Of a stretch of 47,059 nt of DNA, positions 12,351 through 44,811 are shown piece by piece. The DNA lies in contig SVMS01000013.1 in NCBI GenBank assembly GCA_015067255.1, positions 1 to 47,059 of the forward strand, in the 5' to 3' direction. Origin of the DNA: Oscillospiraceae bacterium. Lineage in GTDB: Bacteria; Bacillota; Clostridia; Oscillospirales; SIG519. A program made the position numbers and the translations under genes. The notes under the pieces were generated by a model. It was not told the origin of the DNA. It saw nothing but the letters and a program-made list of their open reading frames with translations, and did not search any database. The first letter of the stretch is position 1. Each line of letters starts with the position of its first letter.

Positions 12351-13370
12351 AAAAAGAAGTTAATAGTTATAGCAATAGTATCGGCGTTAGCTATCGGAGC
12401 AATTTTTGCTATTGGTTTAATATTTAACAGAAATGAAAAGCTGTCTATTCTCCCACAAGCAATAACAGAGATTAACTATAATAATTATATACTTGATAAT
12501 TATATTGATTATAAAGAAAATCAATTTGCTTGGCTGAAAGCAAATTTATGGGGTGCAAAATTAACCGTTGTTGACAATGATGGCAATTATAGTTATTTTG
12601 ATAAAATTGATGCTCCGTTTCAAATCAACAGCAAACAAATTATTTTTGTTAAAAATAATAAATTGCAGACAAAAGATATTGTCAAAAACGAAACCGTTAA
12701 AATTGCAAATAATGTTGATAAATTTATTGCGTATCAAAATTATATCATTTATAGCTCTGTCAGCATTTTCGATGATAATGACGGAAAATGGAAAAACAAG
12801 CTTTACGTATATGATTTATCGTCAAAAGAGAGCAAAGTTATTTATGAAAATATAACGCAGTTTTATATTCATAAGAAAAAGCTGTTTGCTATCAATGACG
12901 ATAAATGGCTTGTGGAAATTTCATTGAGTGATTACAACACAAAAAATATTATTGATTTCGAAATAGACCAATACCCTTTTTATGTAATGCCCCAAGGAAA
13001 TAACATATTATATCGAAGCTCTAATGAATTGAAATTTCTTAATTTAACCGACAAAAGCATAAAAACTGTTTCTATTGTTGAAAGTCAATATGCAAACAAT
13101 AGGATAAGCTATATTTGTGACGATAATAATGTGTTTTTATCCTTTCAGGCTACAAAAACGAACGGCTCAATCGTAACTGATATCAAAGATGAAAACAACG
13201 GAGTGTGGGCAATAAATACGCTAACCTTTGAAAAGAGCAAGCTTTGTTCTGATGTTTTTGACCGATTGTATTTATTTGACGGCGAATGGCTGTTCGGTAC
13301 AAAAAACAATTCACTTTATAGAATTGATATTAAGACAAAACAAGTAACGAAAGTTTCAAAGGATAGGTAA
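12348..13370 (+). CDS. Membrane-anchored beta-propeller-like protein
   Basis: A 340-residue product with a GTG start after GGGGGAGAGATAGG. The N-terminal membrane segment (about 4-27) lacks a lipobox. The remainder has repeated short beta-strand blocks of the type found in DUF5050/prolow-density receptor-like propellers, for example KLYVYDLSSKESKVIYEN, NELKFLNLTDKSIKTVS and NSLYRIDIKTKQVTKVS. Such domains usually sit outside the membrane and may bind wall or sugar ligands. Its duplicated leader links it to the gene at 17348. Confidence 0.65.
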   Translation: MKKKLIVIAIVSALAIGAIFAIGLIFNRNEKLSILPQAITEINYNNYILDNYIDYKENQFAWLKANLWGAKLTVVDNDGNYSYFDKIDAPFQINSKQIIFVKNNKLQTKDIVKNETVKIANNVDKFIAYQNYIIYSSVSIFDDNDGKWKNKLYVYDLSSKESKVIYENITQFYIHKKKLFAINDDKWLVEISLSDYNTKNIIDFEIDQYPFYVMPQGNNILYRSSNELKFLNLTDKSIKTVSIVESQYANNRISYICDDNNVFLSFQATKTNGSIVTDIKDENNGVWAINTLTFEKSKLCSDVFDRLYLFDGEWLFGTKNNSLYRIDIKTKQVTKVSKDR

Positions 13371-13383
13371 AGGGGCTAATAGA

Positions 13384-13992
13384 ATGAAAAAGATTGCTTT
13401 TATTATGGCAATAGCTGTTTTGTTGAGCTTTTCTGGGTGTCAGAGCAAAGAGCCGGGTGCTTCATCTGAGATAAATGAAAGTGATATATCTTCGCAGATT
13501 GCGGAAGCATATGACGGATATTTAGAAAACATATATGATGTCTACGATATTATTGGTTCGGACAGTACTTTTTATGATGCTATGCGGTATAATGATATAG
13601 ATAAAAAGGCGGATTTGATTTTAAAAGACTTAGTTACAACAAGAGAATTAGAAGCAGGCGCTATATCAATTTATGAAATGTGGAAGGATGAGCTTGAATA
13701 TTCTCTTAGCGAAATTGAAAAGGTCTTATCAAAAGAAAAATTCGAAAAACTTTTGACATCGCAAAGGGATTGGGAAAAATATGTTCAAAGCACCCTTTCC
13801 TGCGATAAAGATATTATGACAGATGAAAACGGCGGTTTTGCATCAGAGCTGTGGTTTAAGTTTCCGCTTGAAAGAGCAAAATTATATCGTGCAAGAACAA
13901 TAAAAATCAAGTATTTGCATTACCTTGTTGAATCGGAAATGTATGATTCCGAAAGCCAATATAAATCTCTTACTTTTAAAAACAAGGCATAA
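13384..13992 (+). CDS. Lipoprotein with LprI/DUF1311-like domain
   Basis: A 202-residue lipoprotein. The signal peptide MKKIAFIMAIAVLLSFSGC carries a lipobox (SFSGC) with the lipidated Cys at residue 19. After a Ser-rich linker comes a helical domain ending with LLTSQRDWEKYVQSTLSCDK, which resembles the DUF1311/LprI signature (QR.W..Y....C). LprI is linked to lysozyme inhibition in some bacteria; that role is not shown here. Its first 65 coding bases are almost identical to those of the lipoprotein genes at 15025 and 16266. Confidence 0.7.
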   Translation: MKKIAFIMAIAVLLSFSGCQSKEPGASSEINESDISSQIAEAYDGYLENIYDVYDIIGSDSTFYDAMRYNDIDKKADLILKDLVTTRELEAGAISIYEMWKDELEYSLSEIEKVLSKEKFEKLLTSQRDWEKYVQSTLSCDKDIMTDENGGFASELWFKFPLERAKLYRARTIKIKYLHYLVESEMYDSESQYKSLTFKNKA

Positions 13993-14019
13993 TTACAGCA
14001 GAGAAAAGGCGGGCATAAA

Positions 14020-14496
14020 ATGAAATATAAAAAAAGTACTGTTAAAGTTGTTTTATTGCTTATTACTTGTTGCTTAATAGTTTTGTGTGGTGGTATAGCT
14101 TGTTATATGATAAAACAAAACAGCAAACACAGTACATTTGGCGGATTTGGAGCAATTATGGTTGCATACATAGTTTTTTTTATATCGGCTTTTTTAAAAA
14201 TAAAGGCTCAGTTTACACAAACGATTGAATTAAATGACAAAATTGTTTTTTATGATAGTGGAAGTGAGCTTTTTATACAATATAGTGAAATAGAAAAATT
14301 ATCATACTCGGGAACTAAATTTGTTCCTATGAGTGAAATAATGACAATACATTCAAAAGACAAAAAGATATATATAGACTTTAATTTTTTAGAATACAGA
14401 AAAATATGGGCAGAAATTATTAACGAATGTCAAAAACGAAATATAGATTGCAAAATTGATGATAAGCTTATAATGAGAGTTTGTCGAAACGCTTAA
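14020..14496 (+). CDS. Two-helix membrane protein with a PH-like cytoplasmic domain
   Basis: A 158-residue protein with two predicted membrane helices (about 9-31 and 43-63) and a C-terminal domain of about 95 residues. The beta-rich pattern there (QTIELNDKIVFYDSG, LFIQYSEIEKLSYSG, KIYIDFNFLEYRKIWAEI) resembles bacterial PH-like domains of small membrane proteins. The last five codons and the stop lie inside the hairpin element at 14483, so the native C terminus may have been altered by that insertion. Confidence 0.6.
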   Translation: MKYKKSTVKVVLLLITCCLIVLCGGIACYMIKQNSKHSTFGGFGAIMVAYIVFFISAFLKIKAQFTQTIELNDKIVFYDSGSELFIQYSEIEKLSYSGTKFVPMSEIMTIHSKDKKIYIDFNFLEYRKIWAEIINECQKRNIDCKIDDKLIMRVCRNA

Positions 14497-14676
14497 AAGC
14501 GTTTCAATAAGCCGATTTTATCGGCTTCGTGCAATTGAAATTTCATACTATTCAATTGCACACGACACTCATTTCAATGAATATGTTCAATTACCGTTGG
14601 TAATTGTTTGCGAATTCAAAGAATTCGCAGTCGAAATAAGGCTTTGACCTATTTCGACATCCACATAGTCATTATA
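14483..14676. repeat. Multi-hairpin element, type B copy 1
   Basis: Six hairpins in a row: GAAACGCTT/AAGCGTTTC (14486), AAGCCGAT/ATCGGCTT (14509), GTGCAATTGAA/TTCAATTGCAC (14529), CAATTACC/GGTAATTG (14588), TGCGAATTC/GAATTCGCA (14609) and GTCGAAATA/TATTTCGAC (14630), ending near TAGTCATTATA. Copy 2 at 18543-18737 has the same order. The second hairpin is identical, the linkers are related, and the other stems are changed on both arms. It occupies most of the gene-free interval 14497-14734. Confidence 0.8.
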
Positions 14677-14734
14677 AAGAGAATAAAAGAATATAAAGGC
14701 TGATATACAGCAGGGAAACGGAAAGGTTGATTTT

Positions 14735-14983
14735 GTGAAAATTTATGCCGAAAAGGATATAGAAACCGATAGTGTTGAGATATTACTTAATTATCAAGAA
14801 TTAAAAACTTTAGCAAGTGCTTTGACAAAATTTGAAGATGAAGTTAAGCGATTTAAAATAGAAAATGAAGATAAAAAAGAGTTAGGATTTACGCACTTGC
14901 ATTTTAAAGACTGCGGTTTAATAGGTAAAAACAGCAATTCGGATATTGTTTTTTATGTAGATTTGAACGAAAAGATTGATTAA
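14735..14983 (+). CDS. Small hypothetical protein
   Basis: An 82-residue cytoplasmic-looking protein with a GTG start after AAAGGTTGATTTT. It contains a central helix (YQELKTLASALTKFEDEVKRF) between predicted beta strands and ends with DIVFYVDLNEKID. I do not recognise it. It stands alone between a hairpin element and a lipoprotein gene. Confidence 0.55.
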   Translation: MKIYAEKDIETDSVEILLNYQELKTLASALTKFEDEVKRFKIENEDKKELGFTHLHFKDCGLIGKNSNSDIVFYVDLNEKID

Positions 14984-15024
14984 GATAGCGGTTGTTGTTT
15001 TGTTAGCGAAAAGGAGTTGATAGA

Positions 15025-16203
15025 ATGAAAAAGATTGCTTTTATTATGGCAATAGTTGTTTTGTTGAGCTTTTCGGGCTGTCAGAGCTCTGATATAACAT
15101 CCTCTGAATTTTCAGGTATACCTCTTGATGAAAACTGTAAAAATGTTGAGTTTTCAAGCATTGATAAAAAGCTTATGGTAATTCCGTCGGACTCTGAAAA
15201 TATGTTTTGCTTATCGGAGGACGGTACATATAACAAAAGAATATTTACAGATTTTTATATTTTTAACCCTTTACGCAGCACTCCGATAATAGAAATGTCT
15301 GAAAATAAATGGCTTTTGTTATATAAAATAGAGCCGAGTTATTATCTGACTGAAAACAAAACGATTGTTGATAATGAGGGGAAAATTCTGGCAGATAAAA
15401 ATAAAAAAGAATTTTCCGATGCACCTGATTATCATACTAAACGCAATCCCGTGAACCTTTGTATTAAATATAATGAGTTTTCTAAAAGCATTGTTGCAAC
15501 ACAACAGTTTCCGTATAATGCATGGAGTGAAATAGCGGCAATAAAACACAGCTTTTTTACAATATCAACAGAAGCAACCGAAAAATATGAATTTTTGGAT
15601 AGTGATACTGTTGCAATAATGGATATTGACGAGAACTATTTAGACGGAGAAAACAGCTTAGGAGTAGAAAGAGCTTTAAACTGTGGCTGGCTTAAAGAAA
15701 AATATACAAATGTATTGGCTGATTGCAGCTTGAATTATCTGTATTATGAAGAGGTTGAAAAAGATTTATCTCCCAAAATATACCGAAGAAACATTGGCGC
15801 CGAATACAGCAAAGATAAAAATATAATTCTTTATAAAAAAGATGCCTGCAATCCGATTGTATCGTCAGATGATTCTATTTTTGCGTATAACAGTTGCAAA
15901 AATGCTTCTTACAATAGTGAGAATAAATGGCATACAGTAGTAGAAAAAAACGGCAAAGTGATTATTGAATTTGATAACCAACGAATTGTTCTCATTGATG
16001 AATTTGATAATGAGCTTTATGTAATTGATCCCAACAGCTTTTCACTTGAAATTTATTCATATGATGCGCTTAAGCAGGTAGGTAAAGCAAAATTAGATAA
16101 TAATCTGATTTTTCCTCAGATAATTAAAGGTAAGCTACAGTACACTTGTCCTGTATATAAGAACGAAAAAGTTGAAAAGTACATTGTTAAGCAGGAACAG
16201 TAA
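15025..16203 (+). CDS. Lipoprotein of unknown function
   Basis: A 392-residue lipoprotein with the same signal peptide as its neighbours (MKKIAFIMAIVVLLSFSGC) and the lipidated Cys at residue 19. AAAGGAGTTGATAGA precedes the ATG. The mature part is unlike the other two proteins with this signal; it has many short beta-type repeats and five or more cysteines. It may be a beta-propeller-like exported binding protein, but I recognise no catalytic motif. Confidence 0.65.
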   Translation: MKKIAFIMAIVVLLSFSGCQSSDITSSEFSGIPLDENCKNVEFSSIDKKLMVIPSDSENMFCLSEDGTYNKRIFTDFYIFNPLRSTPIIEMSENKWLLLYKIEPSYYLTENKTIVDNEGKILADKNKKEFSDAPDYHTKRNPVNLCIKYNEFSKSIVATQQFPYNAWSEIAAIKHSFFTISTEATEKYEFLDSDTVAIMDIDENYLDGENSLGVERALNCGWLKEKYTNVLADCSLNYLYYEEVEKDLSPKIYRRNIGAEYSKDKNIILYKKDACNPIVSSDDSIFAYNSCKNASYNSENKWHTVVEKNGKVIIEFDNQRIVLIDEFDNELYVIDPNSFSLEIYSYDALKQVGKAKLDNNLIFPQIIKGKLQYTCPVYKNEKVEKYIVKQEQ

Positions 16204-16265
16204 AGCTATAAAAATAGTGGCTTTTGCTACCGTAACCTTTTATATTATAAAAAGGAGTTGATAGA

Positions 16266-17309
16266 ATGAAAAAGATTGCTTTTATTATGGCAATAATTGT
16301 TTTGTTGAGCTTTTCGGGGTGTCAGAGCAAAGAGCCGAGCGGGAATGACAATTCAAGCGCTGTTGAGTCAAGGGTTTACAACAACATTGTTACTGCTAAA
16401 GAGGTTGTTGAACGTGACGGATATATTTATTTTATTCACTACGGCGTTGTATATAAAAAAGGACTTGAAGAAGAAACGGCGACTAAAATTGCTCCCTATG
16501 AAGACTACTATGAAATTAACAAATATAGAAGTGCTTGTTTGCTTGATTATGAGGATTTATACGCTGTTTTTGTTGATAGAGATAGGGTAGACAGCGATAA
16601 AAGCCGAGCGACTTTTTATAATATTTCAAAAGAGAAAACAGAAAAAGAGGTTATTTTAAGCGGCTATGTGTTTGAAGAATCAATTACCGCTTGCGATAAT
16701 GACATTTATTATATTACAAATTTAACATCTTCTTCATCGAGGACTTTATGTCTTCTTAAAAGCAGCGGAGAACAGATGCCTATTGCAACGGATGTGGGTA
16801 GTAAATATTTTGTACTAAAAGATAAAATACGCTATTACAGCGAAAGTGAGAAAGTTTTTTATGAATGTGATTTAGACGGTTATAAAAGAACTGTAATTGA
16901 AACGGGAATAGACAAAGAGAAAATTTTCATTTCGCATTTTTACATGGATTATATAGTGGTACAAACGCATACAAATGAAACGTTTATTTATAATTTAGAA
17001 AATAAAAAATTGCAAATTGTTCCTTTATGGACTAATATTGAAAGAAACGGATTTGCAGATAATTACTGTTATGTAAATAATTATTATACACCGGTTAAAA
17101 TCAACCTTGATGACGGTACTTACAGTAAAATTTATGACGGTTTATGGGTAAGACTTAAAGTTTATAAGAATTATGTCTATATGGATGCTGTATCTTCAGG
17201 TACTGAAGATGAGCCGATTGAAGGACCTTATCCTACAGGACTTTACAGAGTTACTCTTGACGGCAAAGATTTCAAAGAGATTTTTTTGAACAGTAGTTTA
17301 AATGGTTAA
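16266..17309 (+). CDS. DUF5050-like lipoprotein (predicted beta-propeller)
   Basis: A 347-residue lipoprotein with signal MKKIAFIMAIIVLLSFSGC. Mature repeats such as DGYIYFIHYGVVYKKGLEE, CDNDIYYITNLTSSSSRTLC and NYVYMDAVSS followed by GLYRVTLDGKDFKEI are typical of DUF5050 propeller proteins of Clostridia. AAAGGAGTTGATAGA precedes the ATG, identical to the leader at 15025. Its last codons (IFLNSSLNG) are encoded by the duplicated leader cassette that also lies before 12348, so its C terminus probably joins older coding sequence to a copied leader. Confidence 0.7.
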   Translation: MKKIAFIMAIIVLLSFSGCQSKEPSGNDNSSAVESRVYNNIVTAKEVVERDGYIYFIHYGVVYKKGLEEETATKIAPYEDYYEINKYRSACLLDYEDLYAVFVDRDRVDSDKSRATFYNISKEKTEKEVILSGYVFEESITACDNDIYYITNLTSSSSRTLCLLKSSGEQMPIATDVGSKYFVLKDKIRYYSESEKVFYECDLDGYKRTVIETGIDKEKIFISHFYMDYIVVQTHTNETFIYNLENKKLQIVPLWTNIERNGFADNYCYVNNYYTPVKINLDDGTYSKIYDGLWVRLKVYKNYVYMDAVSSGTEDEPIEGPYPTGLYRVTLDGKDFKEIFLNSSLNG

Positions 17310-17350
17310 AATGGTTGCTGCTGACTTTTAGCAAAGGGAGAGATAGAATG
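17284..17350 (+). repeat. Duplicated gene-leader cassette, copy 2
   Basis: Same ordered words as 12294-12350, with an extra TTTAAATGGTT and GACTTTT. It overlaps the end of the 16266 gene and supplies the ribosome site GGGAGAGATAG of the 17348 gene. Confidence 0.8.
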
Positions 17351-18292
17351 AAAAAGATTATACCGTTTATTTTATTTGTGCTTATTATTATGAGTTTTTC
17401 TTCCTGTCAACCACAGCAAAAGGAGATTATTTACGGAAATACCATAGGTAATTTTTTGAATACAGGGGGATTTCTTTCTTATAACGGTGGAGTGTTTTTG
17501 TCTGAGGAAACAGAAGAAAATAAGCGTGTACTAAAGTGCATAAAAGACTGTCCTTGTGAGGAATATCCTATTCCGTTGGAGGCATCTGAGCTAAATATTA
17601 TAAAAGATGATTTGTATTTTATTTGCGGTAGCGATATACAAAAAATGAATATGAAAACTAAAAAAATTACAGACATCACAGAGATAAATGCAACTATCAG
17701 TAATTTGTTTATTGTAAATGATGATATCTATATGCTGAAAGGATCTAATGGCAATTTAACAAAGTACAATATTAAAACAAAAAAAACAGTCGATTTCAAC
17801 ATCAGCGATATTGGGTATTATGCTGTTTATGATAATTATATTTATTACATACGCAATGCATTTTCAGAAGGCAGGAATTTATACAGGATGTCTGCAAAAG
17901 ACGGAAGCGATAAAACTTTGATTTCCGACAAAGCTTTTCTCTTTCATATTTTTGATGACAAATTATATATAGTACACAATGATTCTCAAAATATATTTTC
18001 TTATGACCTTGACGGAAAGAACGAGCAGCTTGTTTATTCAGGACAAGTGTTCAGACTTAATGATTGGGGAGGAAAGCTTTATATATGCGATAACAAAATA
18101 AATCAAATTCTCGCATTGGATATAGCTTCGGGGGAAACCGAAAAAATATGTGATGCTTCTGCACTTTATCTTGATATTACAGACGGAATAATGTCTTATT
18201 ATGAATGGATAGATAATCCTAAAAATCCTGGTAGCCCTACATTAGTATTGATAGACCTTGAAACTAAAGAAAAGACTATTATATATGAATAG
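17348..18292 (+). CDS. DUF5050-like lipoprotein (predicted beta-propeller)
   Basis: A 314-residue lipoprotein from the ATG at 17348, chosen because AAGGGAGAGATAGA lies just before it; an ATG at 17315 is further upstream without such a site. The signal MKKIIPFILFVLIIMSFSSC ends in the lipidated Cys at residue 20. The mature part is built of about seven repeats of the form DDLYFICGSDIQKMN or DKLYIVHNDSQNIFSYDLDG. It is last in the exported-protein run and is followed by two hairpins. Confidence 0.7.
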   Translation: MKKIIPFILFVLIIMSFSSCQPQQKEIIYGNTIGNFLNTGGFLSYNGGVFLSEETEENKRVLKCIKDCPCEEYPIPLEASELNIIKDDLYFICGSDIQKMNMKTKKITDITEINATISNLFIVNDDIYMLKGSNGNLTKYNIKTKKTVDFNISDIGYYAVYDNYIYYIRNAFSEGRNLYRMSAKDGSDKTLISDKAFLFHIFDDKLYIVHNDSQNIFSYDLDGKNEQLVYSGQVFRLNDWGGKLYICDNKINQILALDIASGETEKICDASALYLDITDGIMSYYEWIDNPKNPGSPTLVLIDLETKEKTIIYE

Positions 18293-18392: not shown

Positions 18393-18542
18393 AAAAATAA
18401 CAGTCGAAAATGTTAAAATTTAAGGTTTTTTTGTGTATTTTTAAATAAAAATATCCTCTTTAGCAGAAAGAAAACTTTAATATATGGAAAATACAAATAA
18501 AGTCTTGTTAAAATTATATCAATGTGCTATAATAATTGTAGT

Positions 18543-18737
18543 TTGTCGAAGCGATAAAATCGTTTCGACAAGCCGATTTTATCGGCTTAATGCAAAATAA
18601 ATTTTATGAATTTATTTTGCACAACAATTATTGAAATGGGTATGGTCAAGTTTTCTAAGAAAACTTGACACCAAATCAAAGATTTGGTGTCGAAACCACG
18701 CAAAAATGCGGGGTTTCGACTAACGATAGCCATTATA
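18543..18737. repeat. Multi-hairpin element, type B copy 2
   Basis: Same plan as 14483-14676. Hairpins are GTCGAAGCGAT/ATCGTTTCGAC (18545), AAGCCGAT/ATCGGCTT (18570, identical in copy 1), TGCAAAATAAATT/AATTTATTTTGCA (18591), GTCAAGTTTTCT/AGAAAACTTGAC (18645), ACCAAATC/GATTTGGT (18670) and GTCGAAACC/GGTTTCGAC (18689), ending TAGCCATTATA. An unpaired middle segment containing TTGAAATG and TATG corresponds to TTTCAATG and TATG in copy 1. The rest of the interval 18393-18922 is AT-rich, and I see no gene in it. Confidence 0.8.
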
Positions 18738-18922: not shown

Positions 18923-19867
18923 ATGGGTAAAAAATTTACAATTATCGGAGCAGGAAGCGTTGGTTCAACAATTGCATATACTCTTTCATCTTCTGATATT
19001 GCCTCTGAAATCGTATTGATTGACATCAACAAAACAAAGGTTGAAGGCGAAGTTATGGATATTATGCAGGGAACTGCCTTCGGAAATCCTGTTTCAATTG
19101 TTGCGGGTGATTATGAGGACGCTGCAGGCTCAGATTTTGTTATTATTACATCGGGTATTGCAAGAAAGCCCGGTCAGACAAGAATTGACCTTTGTCAGAC
19201 AAATGTTAATATTCTTAAGGACATTACTCCCAAGATTGTAAAGGCTTGTCCTGATGCGCTTTATGTAATCGTAAGCAACCCTGTTGACATTATGACATAT
19301 GTATTTACAAAGATTTCGGGCTTACCTGAAAAACAGATTATCGGTTCAGGTACAATTCTTGATACCGCAAGACTTCGCTGTAAGCTTGCTGAGCATTTCA
19401 AAATTGCTCAAAAGAATATTCACGCATACGTTTTCGGCGAGCACGGTGATACATCCTTTATTCCCTGGTCTACAGCTTACGTTTCCGGTGTTAAATTAGA
19501 GGAATATTCCAACATCGCCAACAGAAAGGATAATCTTCCTTATCTTGATGAAGAAGAGATATATACATATGTACGCACCTCCGGCGGCGAGATTATAAAA
19601 AAGAAGGGCGCAACCTTCTATGCAGTATCTGCATCGGTTTGCTCTCTTTGTGAGGTTCTTTGCGACTCCTCTGACTCTATTGTTACCGTTTCTACAATGA
19701 TGCACGGTGAGTACGGAATTGACGATGTATGTATGAGTACTCTTACCCGTGTAGGCGCTGAGGGTTCCAAGGGCAAGGTACATATGGAAATTACAATAGA
19801 CGAACTCAAAAAGCTACATGCAAGCGCAGACGCATTAAAGGCTGTTATTGCGCAGATTGAAATATAA
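18923..19867 (+). CDS. mdh: LDH-fold malate dehydrogenase (possibly annotated as lactate dehydrogenase)
   Basis: A 314-residue NAD-dependent 2-hydroxyacid dehydrogenase. GAGSVGS (9-15) is the dinucleotide loop, the catalytic pair is Asp147 (ILDTAR) and His174 (GEHGD), and Arg150 binds the substrate carboxylate. Overall it reads like an L-lactate dehydrogenase. However, the specificity position, Gln102 in LDH numbering, is Arg81 (ARKPGQTR), as in malate dehydrogenases. The neighbouring fumarase and fumarate reductase genes support oxaloacetate/malate as substrate. The start is ATG 18923 by fit to the family; GTG 18914 is a possible alternative closer to AAAGGA. Gene-symbol confidence is moderate. 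Confidence 0.75.
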   Translation: MGKKFTIIGAGSVGSTIAYTLSSSDIASEIVLIDINKTKVEGEVMDIMQGTAFGNPVSIVAGDYEDAAGSDFVIITSGIARKPGQTRIDLCQTNVNILKDITPKIVKACPDALYVIVSNPVDIMTYVFTKISGLPEKQIIGSGTILDTARLRCKLAEHFKIAQKNIHAYVFGEHGDTSFIPWSTAYVSGVKLEEYSNIANRKDNLPYLDEEEIYTYVRTSGGEIIKKKGATFYAVSASVCSLCEVLCDSSDSIVTVSTMMHGEYGIDDVCMSTLTRVGAEGSKGKVHMEITIDELKKLHASADALKAVIAQIEI

Positions 19868-38164: not shown

Positions 38165-38197
38165 CAAAAAGCACTTCGAAAGAAGTGCTTTTTGTTT
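38165..38197 (+). terminator. Terminator after tRNA-Cys
   Basis: AAAAAGCACTTC and GAAGTGCTTTTT form a perfect hairpin followed by GTTTT. Its 3' half is also the start of the 129-bp direct repeat copied at 42287. Confidence 0.85.
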
Positions 38198-38307
38198 TGG
38201 AAACTAAGTGTGCCTTGCGGCACGATAAGCACACCTTCGGTGCGTGAAGTATGCCTGCGGCAAGTGAAGTGCCTGCGGGCATGGGTGGCACACTTAACTT
38301 CGCTTTG
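38179..38307. repeat. Island-flanking direct repeat, left copy
   Basis: This 129-base segment matches 42287-42415 without gaps and with four differences (125/129). It begins in the 3' half of the tRNA-Cys terminator and runs through the left half of a type A hairpin array. Beyond 38307 the two copies diverge sharply. Confidence 0.9.
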
Positions 38308-42286: not shown

Positions 42287-42415
42287 AAAGAAGTGCTTTT
42301 TGTTTTGGAAACTAAGTGTGCCTTGCGGTACGATAAGCACACCTTCGGTGCGTGAAGTATGCCTGCGGCAAGTGAAGTGCCTGCGGGCATGGGGGGCACA
42401 TTTAACTTCACTTTG
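42287..42415. repeat. Island-flanking direct repeat, right copy
   Basis: Gapless match to 38179-38307 with four differences. It starts with the 3' half of the tRNA-Cys terminator although no tRNA is present here, as expected for a duplicated junction. Confidence 0.9.
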
Positions 42416-44059: not shown

Positions 44060-44811
44060 GTGGAAATAAACCCCCGGTTCTACCGGGGGAAGATAAATAC
44101 TTTAGTATATGTAAAAATAAAACCTCCGTGATATAATTGTGTAAGGTTTGGCGACCGCATTACACAAAAAAACGGAGGAATTATAACATGATAAAGAAAG
44201 ATAGAAACGAAATAAAGAGCAGTGCACATTCAAGGTACAGATGTCAGTATCATATAGTATTTGCACCGAAATACAGAAGACAAGAAATATATGGTCAAAC
44301 AAAGAAAGATATAGGAGAAATACTGAGGAAATTGTGTGAGCAAAAGGGAGTAGAGATAATAGAAGCGGAGGCATGTGTAGATCATATACATATGCTGGTA
44401 AGTATCCCGCCGCATATAAGTATAGCACAATTTATGGGATATCTCAAGGGAAAAAGTTCACTAATGATATTTGATAGACATGCAAATTTAAAATATAAGT
44501 ATGGATCGAGGCGTTTCTGGTGCCGAGGCTATTATGTAGACACGGTGGGAAGAAATAAGAAAGTAATAGCTGAATATATTAGAAATCAATTAGAGGAAGA
44601 TAACGCCTCGGACCAGATAAGTCTCAAGGAATATATGGACCCGTTTATGGGTGCCAAGAATAAGTAGGCTAAAAAAAGACAGCCGCACGTGAGCGGCTGC
44701 CAGTGATTGTAATGCGGTGTCAAACCTTCAGACATCCCTTTTAGGGATGTAGCCTGTATTAGCCCCTTATAGGGGCTGTGCAAGCCACCAGTTTAACTGG
44801 TGGTCTTGACT
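44060..44811 (+). mobile_element. IS200/IS605-type insertion sequence (tnpA only)
   Basis: A left-end hairpin (CCCCCGGT/ACCGGGGG at 44071-44092), one tnpA gene, a hairpin GCCGC/GCGGC after it, and right-end hairpins CATCCC/GGGATG, AGCCCC/GGGGCT and AGCCACCAGT/ACTGGTGGTCT. No terminal inverted repeat or accessory tnpB is present, as in IS200-like elements. Exact ends are estimated from the hairpins. Confidence 0.8.
44188..44667 (+). CDS. tnpA: IS200/IS605 family transposase TnpA
   Basis: A 159-residue Y1 HUH transposase starting at the ATG after CGGAGGAA; a longer frame from 44137 lies in the left-end region. The HUH motif is DHIHMLVS (about 66-73), and the catalytic Tyr lies in the helix VDTVGRNKKVIAEYIRNQ (about 128-145). 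It cuts and joins single-stranded DNA at hairpin-marked ends. The reading frame is intact. Confidence 0.93.
   Translation: MIKKDRNEIKSSAHSRYRCQYHIVFAPKYRRQEIYGQTKKDIGEILRKLCEQKGVEIIEAEACVDHIHMLVSIPPHISIAQFMGYLKGKSSLMIFDRHANLKYKYGSRRFWCRGYYVDTVGRNKKVIAEYIRNQLEEDNASDQISLKEYMDPFMGAKNK

Follow-up and report, generated by a model that had tools for sequence, protein, structure and literature searches.

MITEs of the Correia type and those derived from IS630/mariner carry TATA-like ends and use a two-base target, the duplication being TA; insertion of IS200/IS605 elements is one-sided and leaves no duplication, a property that defines that type. Prokaryotic MITEs in general are short, AT-rich, gene-less, multi-copy intergenic sequences with terminal inverted repeats and a target duplication (PMC10969869). 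In REPINs and BIMEs, which occur with RAYT transposases, paired inverted hairpin units replicate, and compensatory stem changes have been reported (PMC3116915). Yeast mitochondrial GC clusters (GC42) are hairpin mobile DNA with a two-base direct repeat (AG), constrained stems and merging units (PMC4478555), and the hairpin elements of sponge mitochondria combine stable stems with variable loops (PMC2800124).

We analyzed a hairpin element present in two copies in a 47,059-nucleotide stretch of an Oscillospiraceae genome (contig SVMS01000013.1; the whole stretch is hereafter called the window). Its nearest general class is that of prokaryotic MITEs, with which it shares all the properties listed above; however, its whole length consists of two four-way junctions compensated pair by pair, its target is TT-AT-AA with AT duplicated, and no parent insertion sequence was found for it. 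Like REPINs and BIMEs, it replicates as a pair of inverted hairpin units, and its solo units look like remnants, as theirs do, but its units are about 100 nt long, comprise a closing stem and three hairpins each, and are flanked by a symmetric AT duplication. As in GC clusters and other organellar hairpin elements, a two-base repeat is present, loops vary more than stems, and units merge and shuffle; those elements are short single or double hairpins, whereas the one described here is bacterial, about 200 bp long and has a fixed alpha-beta plan. The TATA-like ends and two-base target are also those of Correia-type and IS630/mariner-derived MITEs, except that the duplication is AT and TA is excluded. 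The double four-way-junction plan is absent from MITEs, REPINs, GC clusters and sponge elements as described, and the literature searched contained no described equivalent, although one may exist elsewhere. We class the element as MITE-like, a non-autonomous hairpin element of a new structural type that is real, mobile and widespread in one bacterial group.

The first-pass annotation had placed two copies, starting at 14483 and 18543, each with six hairpins in the same order, the second hairpin being identical and the others differing on both arms. Sequence and folding bear this out: hairpin 2 is AAGCCGAT/ATCGGCTT in both copies, the stem CAATTACC/GGTAATTG of copy 1 (14588–14606) is replaced in copy 2 by GTCAAGTTTTCT/AGAAAACTTGAC (18645–18669), and TGCGAATTC/GAATTCGCA (14609–14629) by ACCAAATC/GATTTGGT (18670–18688). 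The copies are real, but their true ends lie about 15 bases further upstream, at 14469 and 18528, and two closing stems of the form AATG../..CATT had been overlooked, one grouping hairpins 1–3 and the other hairpins 4–6. A copy thereby forms a pair of neighboring four-way junctions, here named alpha and beta; a closing stem and three hairpins make up either one, and the two are placed head to head (in opposite orientation) with two bases between them. Folded as single-stranded DNA, copy 1 reaches a z-score of −11.6 and copy 2 of −16.1, with no shuffled sequence equally good.

Copy 1 with its flanking bases spans 14469–14676 on the forward strand, with AT at 14470–14471 and 14674–14675 and a body at 14472–14673; these ends were set from an alignment with other copies together with the AT flanks, which 90 of the 92 placed elements share. 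Its alpha cloverleaf (14472–14573, forward), supported by folding and covariation, is closed by AATGAGAGT/ACACTCATT and folds into hairpins at 14483–14508, 14509–14527 and 14529–14561. The forward-strand separator TC (14574–14575) follows, and then a beta cloverleaf of type C (14576–14673, reverse), whose predicted fold has the closing stem AATGAATATG/CATAGTCATT and hairpins at 14588–14606, 14609–14629 and 14630–14658. Copy 2 (18528–18737, forward; AT at 18529–18530 and 18735–18736, body 18531–18734) folds likewise into an alpha cloverleaf (18531–18632, forward; closing stem AATAATTGT/ACAATTATT; hairpins 18543–18571, 18571–18587 and 18591–18621), the separator GA (18633–18634, forward) and a beta cloverleaf (18635–18734, reverse; closing stem AATGGGTATGG/GATAGCCATT; hairpins 18645–18669, 18670–18688 and 18689–18720). 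Terminal inverted repeats, ATAATGATTGTAGTTTGTCGAAAC and ATAATGGTTATAGTTAGTCGAAAC, occupy opposite ends of the element. Among the 107 full elements collected here, which are short (154–254 nt, the shortest being cut by contig or locus ends), non-coding and multi-copy, the separator has two bases in 106 and is never AT (GC in 49, GA in 33, TG in 12, TC in 7 and others in 6).

What had been framed as two copies of one element, which they are, belongs to a widespread, modular mobile family. Similarity and pattern searches of this genome yielded 12 full copies and several deleted ones of about 64 to 106 bp; further copies thus exist, and their stems are still complementary, so neither of the outcomes proposed as refuting the observation occurred. 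The collection by covariance model that had been proposed was carried out with a beta model (R1, 13 sequences) and an alpha model (R2, 11 sequences), and pairing their matches on these and other loci gave the 107 distinct full elements. R1 matches 10 of 394 genomes of the order, its own included, in eight genera, and the same plan occurs in two more genomes among about 391 drawn from the class, in one of them as a more diverged form. The pattern of end motifs was found in at least 120 contig stretches of named assemblies, nearly all of them MAGs of Oscillospiraceae or Clostridia, the majority recovered from the gut of ruminants; a few single end-pattern matches in unrelated phyla lack a second end and appear fortuitous. 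Searches of plasmids returned nothing beyond a 35-base AT-rich match in Latilactobacillus only, and searches of phages returned no matches to the element; two viral-contig matches to the end pattern were rejected, being devoid of the element structure.

The units are modular: the alpha of copy 1 is of the common type and its beta of type C, and another copy in this genome (G000 C17:35290) carries that beta with a different alpha. Solo units also exist (L120, beta; L123, alpha); they could be independent movers, but would arise just as readily by deletion between the inner and outer arms, which are direct repeats. Some elements stand head to tail in tandem, sharing one AT, or form alpha-beta-alpha triples (L248, L262, L265, L168, and L085 of G178 C12); insertion at an existing end, or slippage during replication, could account for these arrangements. 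In the G181 family (L106–L115), hairpin 2 of beta bears a large imperfect extension (GGGTTGGCTCC...GAGCCAATCCC). Elsewhere in the class, locus L341 (1400–1680, G564) holds a more diverged double cloverleaf; behind it comes a second tandem repeat whose ends differ (ATAACACAAACTACGTGTTGAA), and this form may be a separate subfamily.

Genome G126 contains more than 30 copies and G181 about 20, many of them 97–100% identical. The proposed comparison of occupied and empty sites was made by joining the flanks of seven G126 copies and searching them in the genus, which revealed three uninterrupted sites in the sister genome G268. In two of them exactly one AT corresponds to the AT-element-AT of G126; the remaining site (L137/G268) is not clean and contains an extra ATC. 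The AT flanks at both ends represent a duplication, and the target consensus is TT-AT-AA, with an equal preference read from either side. A TA duplication was rejected because the base before AT varies, being T in only about three quarters of cases, so that only the AT register fits. Taken together, near-identical copies, empty sites and AT duplication demonstrate that the element is mobile.

Insertion at or near gene ends, as described in the first-pass annotation, holds in part: of the 74 placed elements only two lie inside ORFs, and their surroundings contain 63 gene starts at distances up to 150 bp and 32 gene 3′ ends at up to 60 bp. The distance from TTGACA-like boxes to the downstream TATAAT rebuilt by the element has a sharp maximum at 17 bp (nine sites, where other spacings average 1.4; p = 8e-6), and this peak, counted over nine sites, indicates that some insertions hit promoter −10 boxes and preserved them. 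The elements can occupy promoters yet leave them intact. Copy 2 offers a probable example at 18505–18533 (forward; TTGTTA, 17 bp, TATAAT), where sequence and the general 17-bp enrichment suggest a promoter with its −10 box rebuilt by the element end; a lactate/malate dehydrogenase gene (Pfam Ldh_1) lies downstream at 18923. Insertion of copy 1 replaced the 3′ end of a 158-aa ORF (14020–14496, forward; no Pfam match), whose last codons and stop codon lie inside the copy and are supplied by it. The window also contains, at 13369–17359, a row of lipoprotein-like genes with near-identical starts (85–93% over 87 nt) and different bodies.

The paired changes noticed in the two window copies recur throughout the family. 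In large alignments, whose fitting to covariance models favors pairing, two-sided changes are found at every one of the 40 pairs of alpha and at 35 of the 37 pairs of beta, and the covariation scores (0.56 for alpha and 0.53 for beta) compare with 0.15 and 0.14 in shuffled alignments and less than 0.1 with partners slid; the copies were found through their ends and structure-trained models, a selection that raises the figures for both ends and pairing. The size of the effect is nevertheless considerable, and small MAFFT alignments agree with it (11 and 13 pairs changed on both sides versus 3.9 and 4.5 in shuffles). Among near-identical copies, unpaired sites changed in 23 of 737 cases and stem sites in 17 of 2426, making the former about 4.5 times faster (p = 3e-6). 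Strong covariation and slower stem change in near-identical copies support the selection on structure that had been proposed as one cause of the compensation.

An ordinary MITE, with a transposase needing terminal repeats only and hairpins that are incidental, would explain why the ends and target duplication are of MITE type and why short derivatives of about 64 bp (C17:22768, C16:36600 and C24) keep both ends with most hairpins gone. However, these short forms are scattered single copies with no amplified families seen, covariation across many species is no weaker in the internal hairpins than at the ends, and stems in recent copies change far less than loops, unlike incidental sequence. We therefore regard this explanation as unlikely.

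The compensation had alternatively been attributed to a process copying one arm from the other; replication template switching or hairpin gene conversion could keep stems perfect without selection. Such a process would agree with stems being far more perfect than loops and with nine distinct cases of exact loop inversion between related copies (e.g., GAAAAA/TTTTTC and ATAA/TTAT), which suggest some hairpin-level exchange. However, these inversions are few and mostly simple A/T, low-complexity sequences, and copies that are 97–100% identical show 17 one-sided stem changes and no two-sided ones, while two-sided changes accumulate gradually over five bins of rising divergence (0, 5, 17, 53 and 186). 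Since only single changes separate close copies, with double changes building up as divergence grows, selection fits better than instant arm copying, which is unsupported as the main process and improbable as an explanation of the stems; a minor contribution is possible.

No mobilizing enzyme was identified, and no coding or autonomous element with the same ends was found in the at least 120 contig stretches, this genome, G126 or G181; assemblies break at such repeats, so a hidden autonomous copy is possible, and the elements themselves break gut Clostridia metagenome assemblies. The serine recombinase and Y1 genes checked have no element ends nearby (within 1.5 kb in the case of Y1). Serine recombinases are present in genomes both with and without the element, the genome of the window (G000) having a fragment only. 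The AT core between inverted ends would fit a serine-recombinase two-base crossover, and exchange of a two-base palindromic AT would suit such an enzyme or, alternatively, a DDE transposase that duplicates two target bases.

Movement of a REPIN-like element through single-stranded hairpins by a Y1 (IS200/RAYT) transposase deserves separate consideration, as the inverted pair of hairpin units, the compensatory changes and the intergenic location are all as in REPINs (PMC3116915), and a Y1 transposase gene lies inside the window (44137–44667). No match to the Y1 family (PF01797) was found, however, in G126 or G268 (assemblies 90% and 68% complete), despite the many near-identical copies, and none of the checked Y1 genes has element ends in its vicinity. 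The symmetric TTATAA preference and AT duplication in the flanks are also unlike the one-sided insertion of IS200/IS605, and insertion of that type was rejected on these data. Such a mobilizer thus seems rather improbable.

The proposal of selection on structure, upheld above, had not distinguished between DNA and a single RNA strand. Under selection on one RNA strand, G-U pairs are expected to be tolerated and A-C mismatches are not. Approximately 2,416 pairs of 38 representatives, taken from a separate fold that allowed Watson–Crick pairs only and treated both mismatch kinds alike, include 5 G-U and 8 A-C, whereas in the control, formed by 324 pairs from the acceptor and T stems of 27 tRNAs found at these loci, there are 27 G-U and 3 A-C (difference from the element, p = 0.001). 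One-sided changes between related copies are similarly balanced (129 G-U and 119 A-C), and elements upstream of gene starts show no strand preference (30 alpha-first, 33 beta-first). With G-U no commoner than A-C and orientation even, the constraint is on DNA pairing, or on a pairing required to function from either strand, rather than on a single RNA strand. It is very improbable that the element is a structured non-coding RNA or a cis-regulatory leader, with the RNA fold selected and mobility secondary: the very strong covariation, the clear multi-branch fold and the many copies within 150 bp upstream of gene starts, some just behind a promoter, would suit it, but G-U pairs are not tolerated where tRNAs of the same loci tolerate them, orientation relative to genes shows no preference, and Rfam yielded nothing at the gathering score and no noteworthy match when E was relaxed to 1. 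The structure could serve a function other than transposition, for example that of a neutral leader on either strand.

For an element that is multi-copy, recently mobile, bounded by terminal inverted repeats, inserted at TT-AT-AA with AT duplication and built of Watson–Crick helices without strand preference, we consider it likely that it is non-autonomous MITE-like mobile DNA composed of two cloverleaf units joined in opposite orientation, in which the folded DNA is what counts. Because neither a mobilizing gene nor an autonomous copy was found, we infer an enzyme supplied in trans; preservation of shape while the letters change suggests that it recognizes the folded DNA of the element. We hypothesize that this enzyme would bind the element ends, cut two bases apart across AT and join the element to a TTATAA target, and that the four-way junctions, extruded as a cruciform or from a single strand, would be required for recognition. 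Copies losing stem pairing would then stop moving, and only compensated lineages would spread.

More tentatively, we speculate that there might be a class of bacterial mobile DNA signaled by a pair of extruded DNA four-way junctions, whose recombinase or transposase reads shape and not sequence; its units would be freely swapped and re-lettered, and the AT site and the non-AT separator would mark permitted and forbidden cutting. The family provides a natural case in which the secondary structure of DNA, not RNA, is compensated pair by pair across many bacterial species within a modular mobile unit, and it opens to testing the hard question of whether shape is what is read in folded DNA inside living bacteria. 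Covariation alone is no proof of RNA; here it is the missing G-U pairs that separate DNA from RNA.

The window contains other repeats. Two GC-rich hairpin arrays of 129 nt (38179–38307 and 42287–42415; 97% identical), composed of AGTGAAG.. repeats with GC hairpins, are unrelated to the double-cloverleaf element and probably correspond to the "type A" of the first-pass annotation. The IS200-like Y1 transposase gene at 44137–44667 (PF01797, E = 2e-38) lies about 1.7 kb from one of them, and a RAYT-like pairing of this gene with the GC-rich arrays is possible. At the contig end, positions 1–243 hold a 110 bp tandem repeat in two identical copies and the start of a third.
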